DNA from: Lentisphaeria bacterium
GTDB lineage: Bacteria > Verrucomicrobiota > Lentisphaeria > JABSQK01
Length of the DNA stretch: 58,539 nucleotides
Direction of reading: 5' to 3'
Assembly: GCA_013215875.1 (NCBI GenBank)
Contig: JABSQK010000029.1
Location: 1-58,539 of the forward strand
Below the pieces are notes generated by a model. The model searched no databases. It had not been told where the DNA came from and saw nothing but the letters and a program-made list of their open reading frames with translations. Numbering within the stretch: position 1 is the stretch's first letter; each line of letters begins with the position of its first letter. Shown piece after piece: positions 7,988 to 13,275 of the stretch. The translations under genes and the position numbers were made by a program.

Positions 7988-8968
7988 TTAAAATTCGATT
8001 TCGATGACGACAGGCAGATGATCTGAATAGAGATCCGGCCCGATTTTACGTGAAATCACATTGATAGACGGACTGAGCAAACAATGATCGATAGGAATGC
8101 GAATGAGAGAATTTCCTGATGGCCAGCTTGCCTGATTTCCATAGCCCTGCCGACTATCATACAGATTGGCATCCGTTAATAAATCCTTGAAATAGGGCGA
8201 CCAGGGAACTGTATTAAGATCACCAATAATGACCGTATTTGAACCTGCAACAACTTTGTTGGCCAGAAATTTGAGTTGTTTATTGCGGTTAATGGAGTAA
8301 TCCAGGCGTCGTGGCGGCAAAGGATGCGTTCCCCATATACAAAGCTTTTTATTAAACAGCAAGGCACGAATGCTTGGCACTCCCCGGTTACCTCTTTTAA
8401 CAATAGCCGCCTCATCGAATGGAATGCGGCTGAGCATCGCAATACCAAAGTTATCATCACGCAAGGACTCTTTATGATGTGGATAATCAGTTCGCAACTC
8501 AGCAAGCGCATTCCACCATTTATAGTTTACTTCCGCTAATACAATGATATCCGGATTTTCGCTTTTTACGTAGTCCATAAAACGGTTGTAGTTTCTATTT
8601 CCTGAGTAAACATTGAAAAACAGCAGCTTCAGCTTTTTGTTTTCGACGAGAGCCACTTTTGTCCTCGGCACATAACCTGGGACAATTTGTGTTAGTAAAA
8701 AGAGAATTGGCAGTGTAATGAATGCAGCCTTCTTCCAGCTCTTAGCTAACAGTGCAACTATTAGCGCCACTGCATAGCAAACTAGGTACTGCATGTAAAA
8801 ACTATTTAATAAATCGAATATATAAAAAACCCGACCCAGAAATGAGCCGCATAATATGAGTGTTAGAAGGACTGTCGAGGCATCAACCAGCCCGATGAAG
8901 CTGAAAAGATTTCGTCGCTTCTTTGCATTTTTGCGTTCGTCGACTGTAGATACGTTTGCGATTCTCAA
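7988..8968 (-). CDS. Membrane-anchored endonuclease/exonuclease/phosphatase (EEP) protein
   Basis: About 326 residues with three N-terminal membrane helices (roughly residues 23-115) and an extracytoplasmic EEP domain. The catalytic motifs are all present: NVYSGN, LAEVN (metal-binding Glu), GDLNT and the final SDHLPV. The layout resembles YafD-type membrane EEP proteins, which act on phosphoesters of unknown identity. The best start is a TTG that overlaps the end of the HMG-CoA synthase gene by 86 nt. No ATG or GTG exists before the first membrane helix, so translation coupled to the upstream gene is likely. The exact start is uncertain. Confidence 0.85.
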   Translation of the reverse strand: MRIANVSTVDERKNAKKRRNLFSFIGLVDASTVLLTLILCGSFLGRVFYIFDLLNSFYMQYLVCYAVALIVALLAKSWKKAAFITLPILFLLTQIVPGYVPRTKVALVENKKLKLLFFNVYSGNRNYNRFMDYVKSENPDIIVLAEVNYKWWNALAELRTDYPHHKESLRDDNFGIAMLSRIPFDEAAIVKRGNRGVPSIRALLFNKKLCIWGTHPLPPRRLDYSINRNKQLKFLANKVVAGSNTVIIGDLNTVPWSPYFKDLLTDANLYDSRQGYGNQASWPSGNSLIRIPIDHCLLSPSINVISRKIGPDLYSDHLPVVIEIEF

Positions 8969-10064
8969 TACCTTCTAAAAAATGTTTGCCCGAAAATAAA
9001 TTGCTGTCTATTCGACCCGGAAAAAATGAACAGTGCCATTCATGCCACTCTGTGTATTGCTCATGATCAACCTCAATGCGACCCTCTAAATGAGCAGTAT
9101 TTTTCTCCTGATTTGTTCTTAACTGATTTATTCGTCCATTAAAAAATACTGCAGTACTACCTGAGCCATAACTATAAAACCCCAGCTTTTCCAAAGGAAT
9201 TTCCGCATGATCCATTAGCGATATGAATCCTAAATACAAGGAGGCAGTATAGCTATTACCAATCATCCGTGAATAAATCTTACTGGAATCTATTGTGTCT
9301 TTAAAGTCAAGATCTTTCCCGTTCTTTCGCAAAACATTAAGTACTTTTCGGCTAATACCATTATAAGGCAGGTGCAGCAGGATTGCGCTTAAATCATCCA
9401 AAGAATTGCTCTGTGAATACCGCTCGATACTTTGCTCAAATAATTTCAGATAAGTTTTGATCGATAACTTACCATCAACGCAGGCCGTTTTGCAATACGA
9501 GGGTCGCCAGAAATCCATTTGGTCATCCAGCAGGGTGACATAGTCTGGACTGATGTGCAAAAGCCTTGGATCTTCTTTTATGATCATGGCGACTGCAGCG
9601 GCACCCTGTGTCGCTTCTGCCGGGCTGCCAGCCGGGTAGAGGGCATGGTCTGAACAAATGACCAATACCTCACGTTCGGGATTCATATGCACGAATGCTT
9701 GAGCGGTTAAGAGTGCATAAGTCCCGCCACAGCATGCCTGCTTGATATCAAATGCCATGCAATCCTCAGGTAAACCAAGCAGCGTTTTTATATGAATTGC
9801 TCCCGACTTCGCTTGGTCGACAAAGGATTCACTGGCAAAAATAATCGGCGAAATTTTAGATTTATCGCAGTTTTTAAATAATGCTTCTGCAGCATTTGCA
9901 GCCATCGTAATAATGTCTTCATTGGGTGGCATCACAGCCATTTTTTCTTGCTCCAGTCCGATAGCAAACTTTTGCGGATCTACACCATAGCTCTGTGCCA
10001 GATTTTTCAAATCCATATAATAGCGCGGTGTATAAAACGCTATGTCATCAATTCCAGTTTTCAT
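8883..10064 (-). CDS. Hydroxymethylglutaryl-CoA synthase family protein
   Basis: A thiolase-fold enzyme that would condense acetyl-CoA with a 3-oxoacyl thioester. The 393-residue protein keeps the full catalytic triad at the positions known from MvaS: Glu79 in FASESFVDQ, Cys111 in DIKQACCGGT and His231 in LLHLPYNG. The C-terminal block GIENRKRIY matches the family end. The ATG has an ideal AAGGAGGG site. It may serve the mevalonate pathway, but no other mevalonate gene is nearby. Its partners are a di-iron protein and an EEP phosphatase, so a beta-branching or specialised lipid role is equally possible. Confidence 0.9.
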   Translation of the reverse strand: MKTGIDDIAFYTPRYYMDLKNLAQSYGVDPQKFAIGLEQEKMAVMPPNEDIITMAANAAEALFKNCDKSKISPIIFASESFVDQAKSGAIHIKTLLGLPEDCMAFDIKQACCGGTYALLTAQAFVHMNPEREVLVICSDHALYPAGSPAEATQGAAAVAMIIKEDPRLLHISPDYVTLLDDQMDFWRPSYCKTACVDGKLSIKTYLKLFEQSIERYSQSNSLDDLSAILLHLPYNGISRKVLNVLRKNGKDLDFKDTIDSSKIYSRMIGNSYTASLYLGFISLMDHAEIPLEKLGFYSYGSGSTAVFFNGRINQLRTNQEKNTAHLEGRIEVDHEQYTEWHEWHCSFFPGRIDSNLFSGKHFLEGIENRKRIYSRRTQKCKEATKSFQLHRAG

Positions 10065-10082: not shown

Positions 10083-10871
10083 CTATACTTCAGCTCGAAT
10101 AGTCACTTGATTCCATCGTGTCGTTTTCTTGAACAATTTTGCATGTTCTTTGAGGTCACTTTGCAGTGCCTGCCATTCGCGCATGCATAATTTATGAAAG
10201 CCAAAAATAGATAATCCAGATGATTTTAATACAGAACGGTGATCCATCCAAACTACCGCAATTGCTGCATTATATACACGATAGTGAAAAAAATGTGCCA
10301 ATGATTGCCGCATGGGGTCTTTTGCTGATTTCGCCAAGGCCAGTGCCTGCCCTTGAAATTGCACATGGTAGTCTTCGTCATGCATGATCTGTCGGCAGAT
10401 AGTTTTCAAGGCAGGCGAATGACTGGCATCATAAAGGGAGTGATAATAAACTTTGGCGATTAACTCAGCACAAATTAACACACGTATTTCGATTTCAAGA
10501 TCCAGGCATTTTCGCAAAAAACGAAAGCAGCTATCTGTCCATTGTTTGCGAAGGACTGGAATCTTCTGCTGATTCATAAATGTTTTCAGATTATCCGCAT
10601 GGCGATGTTCCTCTTTGATAAATAAGTCGAGGCATTTCATATAGGCTTGATTGCCGTTTCGTGCTACAAATTCACGGGCTTTATTGATAAAGGTACGGCC
10701 CTCTGAACTCTCACCAAGTTGAAATATTGCTACGGATTGCCCGATGCAGAGCTTTGTTTGCAGGGAGATAATATCATCATCAGCAAAGGTGATATCCAGC
10801 AGACAGTCTTTGTTCGTTTCAAAATAATCAAACCAGTCATTCCAGTTTTCAGGATAATCTCTTTTATACAT
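10083..10871 (-). CDS. Ferritin-like di-iron protein
   Basis: The 262-residue, mostly helical protein has a full carboxylate-bridged di-iron ligand set: a Glu in GESSEG (54 or 57), Glu88/His91 in EEHRH, Glu136 in CAEL and Glu166/His169 in HDEDYH. This E / ExxH / E / ExxH order fits ferritin-like oxidases or N-oxygenases. The fold family is supported, the substrate is unknown. It is the first gene of an operon with the HMG-CoA synthase (19-nt gap) and EEP gene. A strong AGGAG site precedes the ATG, and an operator palindrome lies 30 nt upstream of the start. Confidence 0.75.
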   Translation of the reverse strand: MYKRDYPENWNDWFDYFETNKDCLLDITFADDDIISLQTKLCIGQSVAIFQLGESSEGRTFINKAREFVARNGNQAYMKCLDLFIKEEHRHADNLKTFMNQQKIPVLRKQWTDSCFRFLRKCLDLEIEIRVLICAELIAKVYYHSLYDASHSPALKTICRQIMHDEDYHVQFQGQALALAKSAKDPMRQSLAHFFHYRVYNAAIAVVWMDHRSVLKSSGLSIFGFHKLCMREWQALQSDLKEHAKLFKKTTRWNQVTIRAEV

Positions 10872-10900
10872 TGCTAACTCCTTTCTATATGTGTCTACTC

Positions 10901-10917
10901 ACTTTGCAATGCAAAGT
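10901..10917. promoter_or_regulatory. Operator of the winged-helix regulator (copy 1)
   Basis: A perfect inverted repeat ACTTTGC-AAT-GCAAAGT. It extends outwards as GTCTA/TAGAC arms to 10893-10925, giving a 33-bp imperfect palindrome. It begins 30 nt before the start codon of the ferritin-like gene. The near-identical site before the regulator's own operon makes autoregulation plus control of this operon the simplest reading. Confidence 0.75.
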
Positions 10918-10934
10918 AGATAGACAAAAAAATA

Positions 10935-11288
10935 TTAAATTGTTTTTGCTTTCCTTATGTCACCATTTTCCATGGCAGTTGATGCTTGTCTCAATACTTC
11001 CTCAAGGGTCGTGAGGTAGTTTAGGAAATTTTTGCGCCCATTTGCAGTGAGTTTTATAGTGGTCAGCGGTTTTACGCCAGCAAATGATTTGTTAACTTTT
11101 ATAGCCTTTGCTTCTTCGAGCATGTGTAAATGCCGGTTTAGATTGCCATCGGTAATTTCGCAGTTCTTTTTTATTTCTGAAAAGCTGATGCCATCGCTGT
11201 GTTGGGCAAGCAGAGACATGATTGCCAGGCGTTTCGGCTCATGAAATATTTTTGATAAGTCATTAAAAACATTTTCCGATTTACTCAT
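10935..11288 (-). CDS. Winged-helix transcriptional regulator (HTH_34/ArsR-MarR-like)
   Basis: A 117-residue DNA-binding protein. The sequence FHEPKRLAIMSLLAQ, then FSEIKKNCEITDGNLNRHL (recognition helix) and the wing VKPLTTIKLTANGR, match the small HTH_34 winged-helix family often encoded beside a membrane protein. Its ATG shares one base with the stop of the upstream membrane-protein gene (TAATG), so the two are translationally coupled. It most likely binds the two ACTTTGC-type palindromes in this region as a dimer. No cysteine cluster or other sensor motif is visible, so the signal is unknown. Confidence 0.88.
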   Translation of the reverse strand: MSKSENVFNDLSKIFHEPKRLAIMSLLAQHSDGISFSEIKKNCEITDGNLNRHLHMLEEAKAIKVNKSFAGVKPLTTIKLTANGRKNFLNYLTTLEEVLRQASTAMENGDIRKAKTI

Positions 11289-11872
11289 TATAGTTTCCTT
11301 GTTTTGTCTAAATGTAAAATGATGGCAGTCGCCGTTTCACCTATAAGAATAATGCTGCCGGGAACAATGCTGTGATAAAAACTAATTCCAGGGATGATGA
11401 GCAAGCTTACTCCAGCAATCAGGTAGCTCACATTAACATAGAAAAGCTGCCTGGGCAAAAAGTGCCTGGAGCTAAAGCCCAGCATTCCGTATAGGGCAAT
11501 CCAGCTGCCAAATAGCATGTCGTAACTGCCATTGCGGAGCAGGGCGATGCTTATGCCGGCTGCAAGCAAGAGCGATGGCAGACATGTCGATAAGGGGATT
11601 AATCGATTCCAGTCGCGCTCGGTATCTTTAATAAACCAGCGTAATACCGCGACGGCATTGAATAATGCACCGAGTGATATGGCGAGCATCCAATAAGAAA
11701 AATGCAGGATAAATGAGTGTTCGCAGCTCATGAGATAGAGGCAGATCAGAAACGTACTGATGCCGCCGGCAAAACGGGCCGGCGCACTGACACCCTCTAT
11801 GCGCTGGTTTAAGACGATCTGCGAACGAATGTTTTGTATCTGATTAATCGTATCTTTTATATTGTGTTCCAT
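11288..11872 (-). CDS. Membrane protein partnered with the winged-helix regulator
   Basis: The 194-residue protein has a short amphipathic N-terminus and about five to six membrane helices. Family unknown. HTH_34 regulators are commonly co-encoded with such integral membrane proteins, which may relay a signal or modulate the regulator. Its stop overlaps the regulator start by one base, and its promoter contains the regulator's predicted operator. Confidence 0.75.
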   Translation of the reverse strand: MEHNIKDTINQIQNIRSQIVLNQRIEGVSAPARFAGGISTFLICLYLMSCEHSFILHFSYWMLAISLGALFNAVAVLRWFIKDTERDWNRLIPLSTCLPSLLLAAGISIALLRNGSYDMLFGSWIALYGMLGFSSRHFLPRQLFYVNVSYLIAGVSLLIIPGISFYHSIVPGSIILIGETATAIILHLDKTRKL

Positions 11873-11886
11873 AGTATTATGAATAA

Positions 11887-11927
11887 CTCATTAAATTTAC
11901 TTTGCAATACAAAGTATGTAAATATTT
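11887..11927 (-). promoter_or_regulatory. Promoter with embedded operator (copy 2)
   Basis: On the minus strand, TTTACA is followed after exactly 17 nt by TAAATT, a plausible sigma-70 promoter. The spacer holds the palindrome TACTTTG-n5-CAAAGTA (11898-11916), which differs from copy 1 at one of 17 core bases. An operator placed between -35 and -10 is the classic layout for a repressor. It lies 27 nt upstream of the membrane-protein start. Confidence 0.7.
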
Positions 11928-12048: not shown

Positions 12049-13275
12049 ATGAAAACACTTTATCTAAATCCCTACAGCGGCATAGCAGGCGATATGACTG
12101 TCGCTGCATTGCTTGACCTAGGTGCAGATTGCGACGCGTTTTGGGCTGAATTGAAAAGTATTCCACTTCCTGCAGATGAATGGCACTGCCATGTGGAAAC
12201 TGTTATGCGCCATGGCATAAAAGCGCAAAAATTTAATGTGCACTTTCATGAACATGGTGAGTCTCATACTCATGAGCACTCAGAGGACGATGACCATTCA
12301 GATGATCATGCGCATCCTGGTCGTCATTTGCCAGAAATCATTTCCTTAATTGAAGAATCTAAAATGTCCGATACTGCGAAAACAAATGCCAAGCAATGTT
12401 TTCAGCACTTAGCAGAAGCAGAGGCGAGTGTACATAATTCGACACCAGACGAAATCCATTTTCATGAAGTCGGCGCGGTCGATGCGATTGTGGATATTTG
12501 CGGTGCAGCGATAGGGATGGCAATTTTAGAGGTCGACCGGGTGGTATCTGCGGCACCATTGCTGGGCTCTGGAACAGTGAAATGCGCTCATGGAATTATG
12601 CCTGTACCTGTTCCGGCTGTGTGCAAATTGCTGGAGGGTGTGCCAAGTAAAGCGGGTGAATTTAAGACAGAAATGACAACCCCTACAGGTGCGGCAATTT
12701 TGAAAACCTACGTTGATGAATTTGAGGCTGCAGTAAGCGGTAAGATTCTCAGCAGTGGATTTGGTGCGGGAACGAAAGATTTTGAAAATCATGCCAATGT
12801 TTTGTCAGTGGTTTTATATGAATCAGATGAGCAAGATGTGGCTGACAGTGTGCTTGTTATTGAAACAAATATCGATGATATGTCGGGTGAATTACTGGCT
12901 CACGCCTGTGGCAAGCTTCTGGAATTGGGCGCCTTGGATTATACCATCTTACCATGTACCATGAAAAAAGGGCGCCCGGGTCAGCTCTTGTCAGTCATTG
13001 TTAGACACGAAGACTTTACTGTAATCTCCGATTACCTATTACGATTTACCACTACCTTTGGTTTGCGCTATCAGACCTGGCAGCGCAAAATACTTAAGCG
13101 TGAAATTATTCAAGTGGAAACTGAATATGGGCCCGTGGACTGCAAGGTGGCATATGATGAAGAGGGTGAAGAAATTAAGCGATCAGCAGAGTATGAAAGT
13201 TGCCGGAAGCTGGCAGATGAAAATGGTATCGATATTTCCATTTTGTATACGGCCGTGCAAAATAGAAAATCCTAA
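12049..13275 (+). CDS. larC: Nickel-pincer cofactor synthase LarC
   Basis: LarC inserts nickel into the pyridinium-bis-thiocarboxylate cofactor used by lactate racemase and related epimerases. The product has 408 residues. Hallmarks are the N-terminal YLNPYSGIAGDM, a His-rich metal loop (about residues 62-85, many H-E-H and D-D-H), EIHFHEVGAVDAIVDI, the TPTGAAIL block and the C-terminal IETNIDDMSGE plus TMKKGRPG. It is one uninterrupted frame, whereas in Lactiplantibacillus it is made by a ribosomal frameshift. No larA, larB or larE is in the window. I start at the ATG before KTLYL; longer upstream reading lacks family similarity. Its stop overlaps the convergent carboxypeptidase stop by 4 nt. 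Confidence 0.95.
   Translation: MKTLYLNPYSGIAGDMTVAALLDLGADCDAFWAELKSIPLPADEWHCHVETVMRHGIKAQKFNVHFHEHGESHTHEHSEDDDHSDDHAHPGRHLPEIISLIEESKMSDTAKTNAKQCFQHLAEAEASVHNSTPDEIHFHEVGAVDAIVDICGAAIGMAILEVDRVVSAAPLLGSGTVKCAHGIMPVPVPAVCKLLEGVPSKAGEFKTEMTTPTGAAILKTYVDEFEAAVSGKILSSGFGAGTKDFENHANVLSVVLYESDEQDVADSVLVIETNIDDMSGELLAHACGKLLELGALDYTILPCTMKKGRPGQLLSVIVRHEDFTVISDYLLRFTTTFGLRYQTWQRKILKREIIQVETEYGPVDCKVAYDEEGEEIKRSAEYESCRKLADENGIDISILYTAVQNRKS

Follow-up and report, generated by a model that had tools for sequence, protein, structure and literature searches.

In Bacillus subtilis, the autorepressor SdpR is sequestered by the polytopic membrane protein SdpI (PMC1626106). The locus analysed here has a similar arrangement, in which a small winged-helix regulator and a polytopic membrane protein are combined in one operon with the logic of autorepression, and SdpR/SdpI is a candidate model for the way in which the membrane partner might relieve repression. 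Here, however, the gene order is reversed, no toxin is present, the regulon includes metabolic genes and the regulator scores far below the SdpR model. RmaH of Lactococcus lactis, a MarR-family protein that directly controls mvk and hmgA and is linked to undecaprenyl phosphate (PMC13277315), is also a winged-helix regulator with mevalonate-pathway genes as its targets. Unlike the present regulator, RmaH belongs to another family, uses another motif, activates those genes and acts globally. In the CreBC-CreD envelope response, a two-component system drives CreD (PMC4689548). In some relatives, CreD also appears among the neighbours in the regulon, but the regulator here is a one-component protein and the genome studied lacks CreD. 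The HTH_34 (PF13601) domain of the regulator is shared with PH1061 (PDB 1ub9), which was deposited as a hypothetical protein.

The pairing of this regulator with a palindrome recurs in several phyla and appears to represent a real, apparently undescribed regulon: in the open-access papers searched, no description was found of the motif, of PF13601 operators or regulons, or of the membrane-protein/regulator gene pair.

The locus and its putative operators

The window, that is, the whole stretch of 58,539 nucleotides that was analysed (contig JABSQK010000029.1 of a Lentisphaeria bacterium), contains the following features, all on the minus strand.

7988..8968, minus strand: membrane-anchored endonuclease/exonuclease/phosphatase-family (EEP) protein, PF03372 (E 1.6e-25), last gene of the block
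8883..10064, minus strand: HMG-CoA synthase (HMGS), 393 aa, TIGR01835 (361.6 bits), catalytic E79/C111/H231
10083..10871, minus strand: ferritin-like di-metal protein, 262 aa, with E54, E88xxH91, E136 and E166xxH169 and an R2lox/ADO-like fold in the model
10901..10917, minus strand: operator O1, ACTTTGCAATGCAAAGT, palindrome ACTTTGCATTGCAAAGT perfect at 14 of 14 positions, between the regulator stop and the ferritin-like start
10935..11288, minus strand: winged-helix regulator, 117 aa, PF13601 HTH_34 (E 2.2e-22)
11288..11872, minus strand: membrane protein, 194 aa, modelled with an amphipathic helix at the start and roughly six membrane helices
11899..11915, minus strand: operator O2, ACTTTGCAATACAAAGT, ACTTTGTATTGCAAAGT, before the membrane-protein start, in the gap that separates this gene from the divergent larC

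The original prediction of one palindrome 30 nt before the ferritin-like gene and a one-mismatch copy 27 nt before the membrane-protein/regulator pair agrees with the sequence. O1 matches ACTTTGC-n3-GCAAAGT without mismatch and is separated by 29 nt from the ferritin-like ATG (10869-10871), while O2 has one mismatch and lies 26 nt from the membrane-protein ATG (11870-11872). The core ACTTTGN5CAAAGT is expected about 0.006 times per window from the window composition and is observed twice. The best of the other palindrome matches in the window has two mismatches and the remainder have three, as expected by chance (4.1 at three or fewer). Neither palindrome is followed by a T tract in either direction.

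A longer dyad, TGTCTA-n3-operator-n3-TAGACA (10886-10926), surrounds O1; it folds as RNA with -17 kcal/mol (z -5.2) and has no T tract; an outer dyad of the TGTCTA/TAGACA type is not seen at O2 or at the third genomic site described below. O2 lies in the gap shared with larC (12049-13275; nickel pincer cofactor protein, Ni_insertion), which diverges from the membrane-protein gene, and O2 could in principle also affect larC.

The regulator and its membrane partner

The stop of the membrane-protein gene overlaps the start of the regulator gene. The regulator passes the PF13601 model over residues 20-98 (79.4 bits, cut-off 27), and its aligned family is homologous to the solved winged-helix structure of PH1061 (E 1.3e-11). 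Two other assignments were rejected. As an ArsR/SmtB metalloregulator the protein scores 29.6 bits with NF033788 (cut-off 55), and its lone Cys is not conserved in relatives; as part of an SdpR/SdpI pair it scores 20.5 bits with NF033789 (cut-off 100), and the membrane protein has no SdpI match. The membrane protein is modelled with a pLDDT of 91. No curated family was found for it, and a fold search of the model against the PDB gave nothing significant, with weak SatP-like matches. The two genes are paired in 83 of 85 loci, and the membrane-protein gene almost always stands immediately before that of the regulator.

Distribution of the motif in the genome

ACTTTGN5CAAAGT occurs at three sites in the 5.49-Mb genome, compared with none for the backward-read control and about 0.5 expected per genome from the window composition. 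All three lie less than 40 nt from a start codon, and two are less than 1 kb apart and flank the same regulator operon, which is not chance. The possibility raised with the original prediction, that the motif might be scattered densely through the genome, is thus answered by three sites in total, two that flank the regulator operon and a third ahead of the start of a different gene. This third site (C217:194-210) lies 36 nt upstream of the start of a hydrophobic protein, whose frame leaves the contig end after 52 residues. Near-matches with three mismatches number 15 genome-wide, against nine for the backward control, and are thus near control level. No operator with two or fewer mismatches was found near the HMG-CoA reductase gene. 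One further candidate, C340:1759, has one core mismatch and was rejected as a chance match, since it lies within a coding frame.

The gene at the third site (C217, 1-157) is weakly like DUF4153 N-termini (E 0.003-0.007 in single comparisons). DUF4153 genes carry the operator at L034/L091, L093 and L127; searches for DUF4153 and CreD in the window's own genome gave no match.

Conservation of the operator with the regulator

The comparison covers 80 named loci and four order or class relatives, chosen by the regulator protein and not by the motif, together with the window. The 80 loci come from Verrucomicrobia/Kiritimatiellae/Lentisphaerae, Planctomycetota, Calditrichota, Deltaproteobacteria and Alphaproteobacteria, with single Chromatiales and Anaerolineae records. 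The operator was searched from -150 to +90 of the membrane-protein start, with controls of matching length taken from the loci themselves. Sites with no more than one mismatch are present at 55 of the 81 testable membrane-protein starts and in none of 848 control stretches. With two mismatches allowed, the counts are 60 of 81 loci and 0.5% of the 848 controls, and the remaining 21 membrane-protein starts have no site at this threshold. The operator is therefore found at the start of the regulator's own operon and is conserved with the regulator, as expected for autoregulation. Aligned, the sites give the consensus tACTTTGYATTGCAAAGTaCTTTG. In 23 of 60 loci, compared with 0.3 expected, the operator is directly followed by a third half-site, ACTTTG; O1 lacks it and O2 has a degenerate form.

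Among genomes of the class, the exact strict site occurs in 7 of 20 that have the regulator and in 12 of 177 that lack it (Fisher p = 9e-4), and in the regulator-bearing genomes eight of nine sites are no more than about 1.9 kb from the regulator gene. Given this co-occurrence and the 55 positive loci among the 81 testable ones, the regulator and the operator travel together.

Two Cerasicoccus genomes (G201 and G202; loci L066 and L071) contain exact ACTTTGN5CAAAGT 27 and 123 times, with 0 and 1 matches for the backward control, and in G202, 16 of 23 inspected sites fall in long open frames. In this genus the motif appears to be a dispersed palindrome, more than an operator alone. Since the Cerasicoccus copies are largely inside genes, a lone match does not prove an operator in every genome. 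In G018, a class relative that lacks the regulator, there are six exact strict sites, five of which share the centre ACTTTGCGTAGCAAAGT; these look like a repeat and not a regulon.

The genes downstream of O1

The ferritin-like protein falls under every curated profile cut-off, the best being Pfam Rubrerythrin (16.5 bits, cut-off 22.8). It nevertheless has the four-helix bundle with the E, ExxH, E, ExxH ligands of R2lox/ADO/AurF-like oxidases, and all of E54, E88xxH91, E136 and E166xxH169 are invariant in six homologues. Its model matches R2lox with E 9e-4 and ADO with a TM of up to 0.73. Because the ligands are conserved and the model is similar to R2-like oxidases and to aldehyde-deformylating oxygenases, the description as a 'di-iron' (or Mn/Fe) protein seems reasonable.

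HMGS passes the bacterial model narrowly (cut-off 360.35 bits), its catalytic Glu, Cys and His are invariant among four homologues, and the window copy is the single match in the genome. HMG-CoA reductase is present, while DXP reductoisomerase was not found in the assembly, which is 92.7% complete and may lack it for that reason. The presence of the one and the absence of the other point to a predicted mevalonate route to isoprenoids. The EEP gene overlaps the HMGS gene by 86 nt and is called with a TTG start; its true start is uncertain.

Putative targets in relatives

A second operator is found before the next gene, just after the regulator gene, in many loci. The recurrent neighbours are cis-prenyltransferase (PF01255), CreD, DUF4153, B12-type radical SAM proteins, HMG-CoA synthase, the ferritin-like family and an unnamed membrane family. 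In L100, L104, L105 and L132, the genes for relatives of the ferritin-like protein are each preceded, at a few tens of nt, by a separate operator. HMGS has a perfect operator upstream in L131 and directly follows the regulator in L033, L036 and L117, with no operator between the two in L033 and L036. The PF01255 neighbours are seen in Alphaproteobacteria, Calditrichota and one deltaproteobacterium. Among the genomes checked, the regulon prenyltransferase is the sole PF01255 gene in two from Calditrichota and in the deltaproteobacterial one; in those from Alphaproteobacteria, it is one of at least two. The common theme of these regulons may be isoprenoid and carrier-lipid supply together with envelope proteins.

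At 11 alphaproteobacterial loci (L083, L087, L089, L106, L107, L109, L115, L118, L126, L129 and L136), the operator overlaps, or lies very close to, the presumed start of a second cis-prenyltransferase gene, beside the regulator. Large membrane proteins without a Pfam match (cluster c4; L057, L060, L069, L074, L101, L103 and others) directly follow the regulator; this family recurs in many Verrucomicrobia/Lentisphaerae loci, and some members have the operator.

Promoter geometry and the sense of control

The exact hexamer TTGCAA, at operator positions 8-13 (0-based), is present in 31 of 60 aligned operators. In 14 of 60 loci, compared with 0.8 expected, a -10-like hexamer is found at operator offset 31, which corresponds to a 17-nt spacer after TTGCAA. 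Since TTGCAA sits 17 nt before a -10-like hexamer in relatives, the operator often supplies the -35 box, and a protein bound there would exclude the polymerase. In the window itself, the -10 box at this distance is poor or absent at both O1 and O2. The original prediction placed O2 exactly between -35 and -10 boxes. Such a pair is present (TTTACA-17-TAAATT, 11922-11894) and the operator fills its spacer, but it is one of 14 promoter-like pairs in the region, where shuffled sequence gives 12.6. The window's own boxes are thus no better than chance, and TTTACA-17-TAAATT is a possible promoter that carries no weight alone.

This geometry bears on whether the regulator might bind the sites as an activator or dual regulator of the downstream genes, which we consider improbable. 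Both O1 and O2 precede start codons and the TTTACA/TAAATT boxes do not reach significance, so the operators' position in the window would by itself permit activation. In relatives, however, the operator holds the -35 hexamer 17 nt from a -10-like hexamer, which is the position of a repressor, and small HTH_34/ArsR-like proteins without an additional domain are repressors in most cases. Because of the operator-promoter overlap in relatives, repression is preferred over activation; it appears well supported for the family, and at the O1 and O2 promoters it is what we infer. Still less credible is a reading of the palindromes as intrinsic terminators or as a dispersed repeat, which we regard as highly implausible. 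They can form short hairpins, and the Cerasicoccus genomes carry up to 123 copies, but the terminator scan lists neither palindrome and this genome has only three copies, all before start codons. The missing T tract after either palindrome leads us to reject an intrinsic terminator.

The division of the block into transcripts is less clear, and there is a nearly even chance that the membrane protein, regulator, ferritin-like, HMGS and EEP genes form one five-gene transcript from O2, with O1 as an internal operator or an RNA hairpin tuning the distal genes. The five genes are on the same strand, with 63 nt from the regulator stop to the ferritin-like start. L033 and L036, where no operator separates HMGS from the regulator ahead of it, and the many loci with a second operator just past the regulator gene are consistent with such a transcript, as is the folded dyad around O1. 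On the other hand, the ferritin-like genes of L104 and L105 are more than 0.5 kb from the regulator and have separate operators, which indicates that a target can own a promoter. The original prediction, that the winged-helix protein represses both its own operon and a di-iron/HMGS/EEP operon, is upheld by the scarcity of the motif, its co-occurrence with the regulator, its place at the start of the membrane-protein/regulator operon across phyla and the operators on ferritin-like and HMGS relatives. Repression is the likelier sense of control, and the di-iron/HMGS/EEP genes may or may not form an operon of their own; the third, distant site lay outside the sequence on which the prediction was based.

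Proposed function of the regulon

The explanation that we favour, and consider probable, is that the HTH_34 regulator binds the palindromes and represses its own operon and the ferritin-like/HMGS/EEP genes, and would thereby steer entry into the mevalonate pathway. The sites, gene content, conservation, co-occurrence and promoter overlap in relatives are directly supported; from these we infer a mechanism in which the protein, as a dimer, would bind ACTTTGYATTGCAAAGT at O2, O1 and the third genomic site. Binding would block RNA polymerase, the -35 box lying in the operator in many relatives, and would repress the membrane protein and regulator operon and the adjoining ferritin-like/HMGS/EEP genes. 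Since a membrane partner is near-universal beside the regulator, a membrane-coupled switch is suggested, in which the membrane protein probably senses membrane or lipid state and relieves repression. The output would be control of mevalonate-pathway entry, that is, of isoprenoid and carrier-lipid supply. That the regulon probably controls this supply follows from the single copy of HMGS, the presence of HMG-CoA reductase and the lack of a detected DXP reductoisomerase.

A broader and quite tentative idea, which we think unlikely to hold in full, is that the two genes form a widely conserved module, a polytopic membrane sensor with an HTH_34 repressor, that would monitor the state of the membrane or of carrier lipids and adjust isoprenoid supply. 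Its targets would be HMGS in this lineage, cis-prenyltransferase in Calditrichota and Alphaproteobacteria, and the envelope proteins CreD and DUF4153. If true, the module would be a bacterial counterpart, by analogy only, of the lipid-feedback control of the mevalonate pathway. The PF13601 regulator family gains a functional lead and a defined operator linked to mevalonate and polyprenyl genes, and this link makes the control of carrier-lipid supply in these bacteria directly testable.
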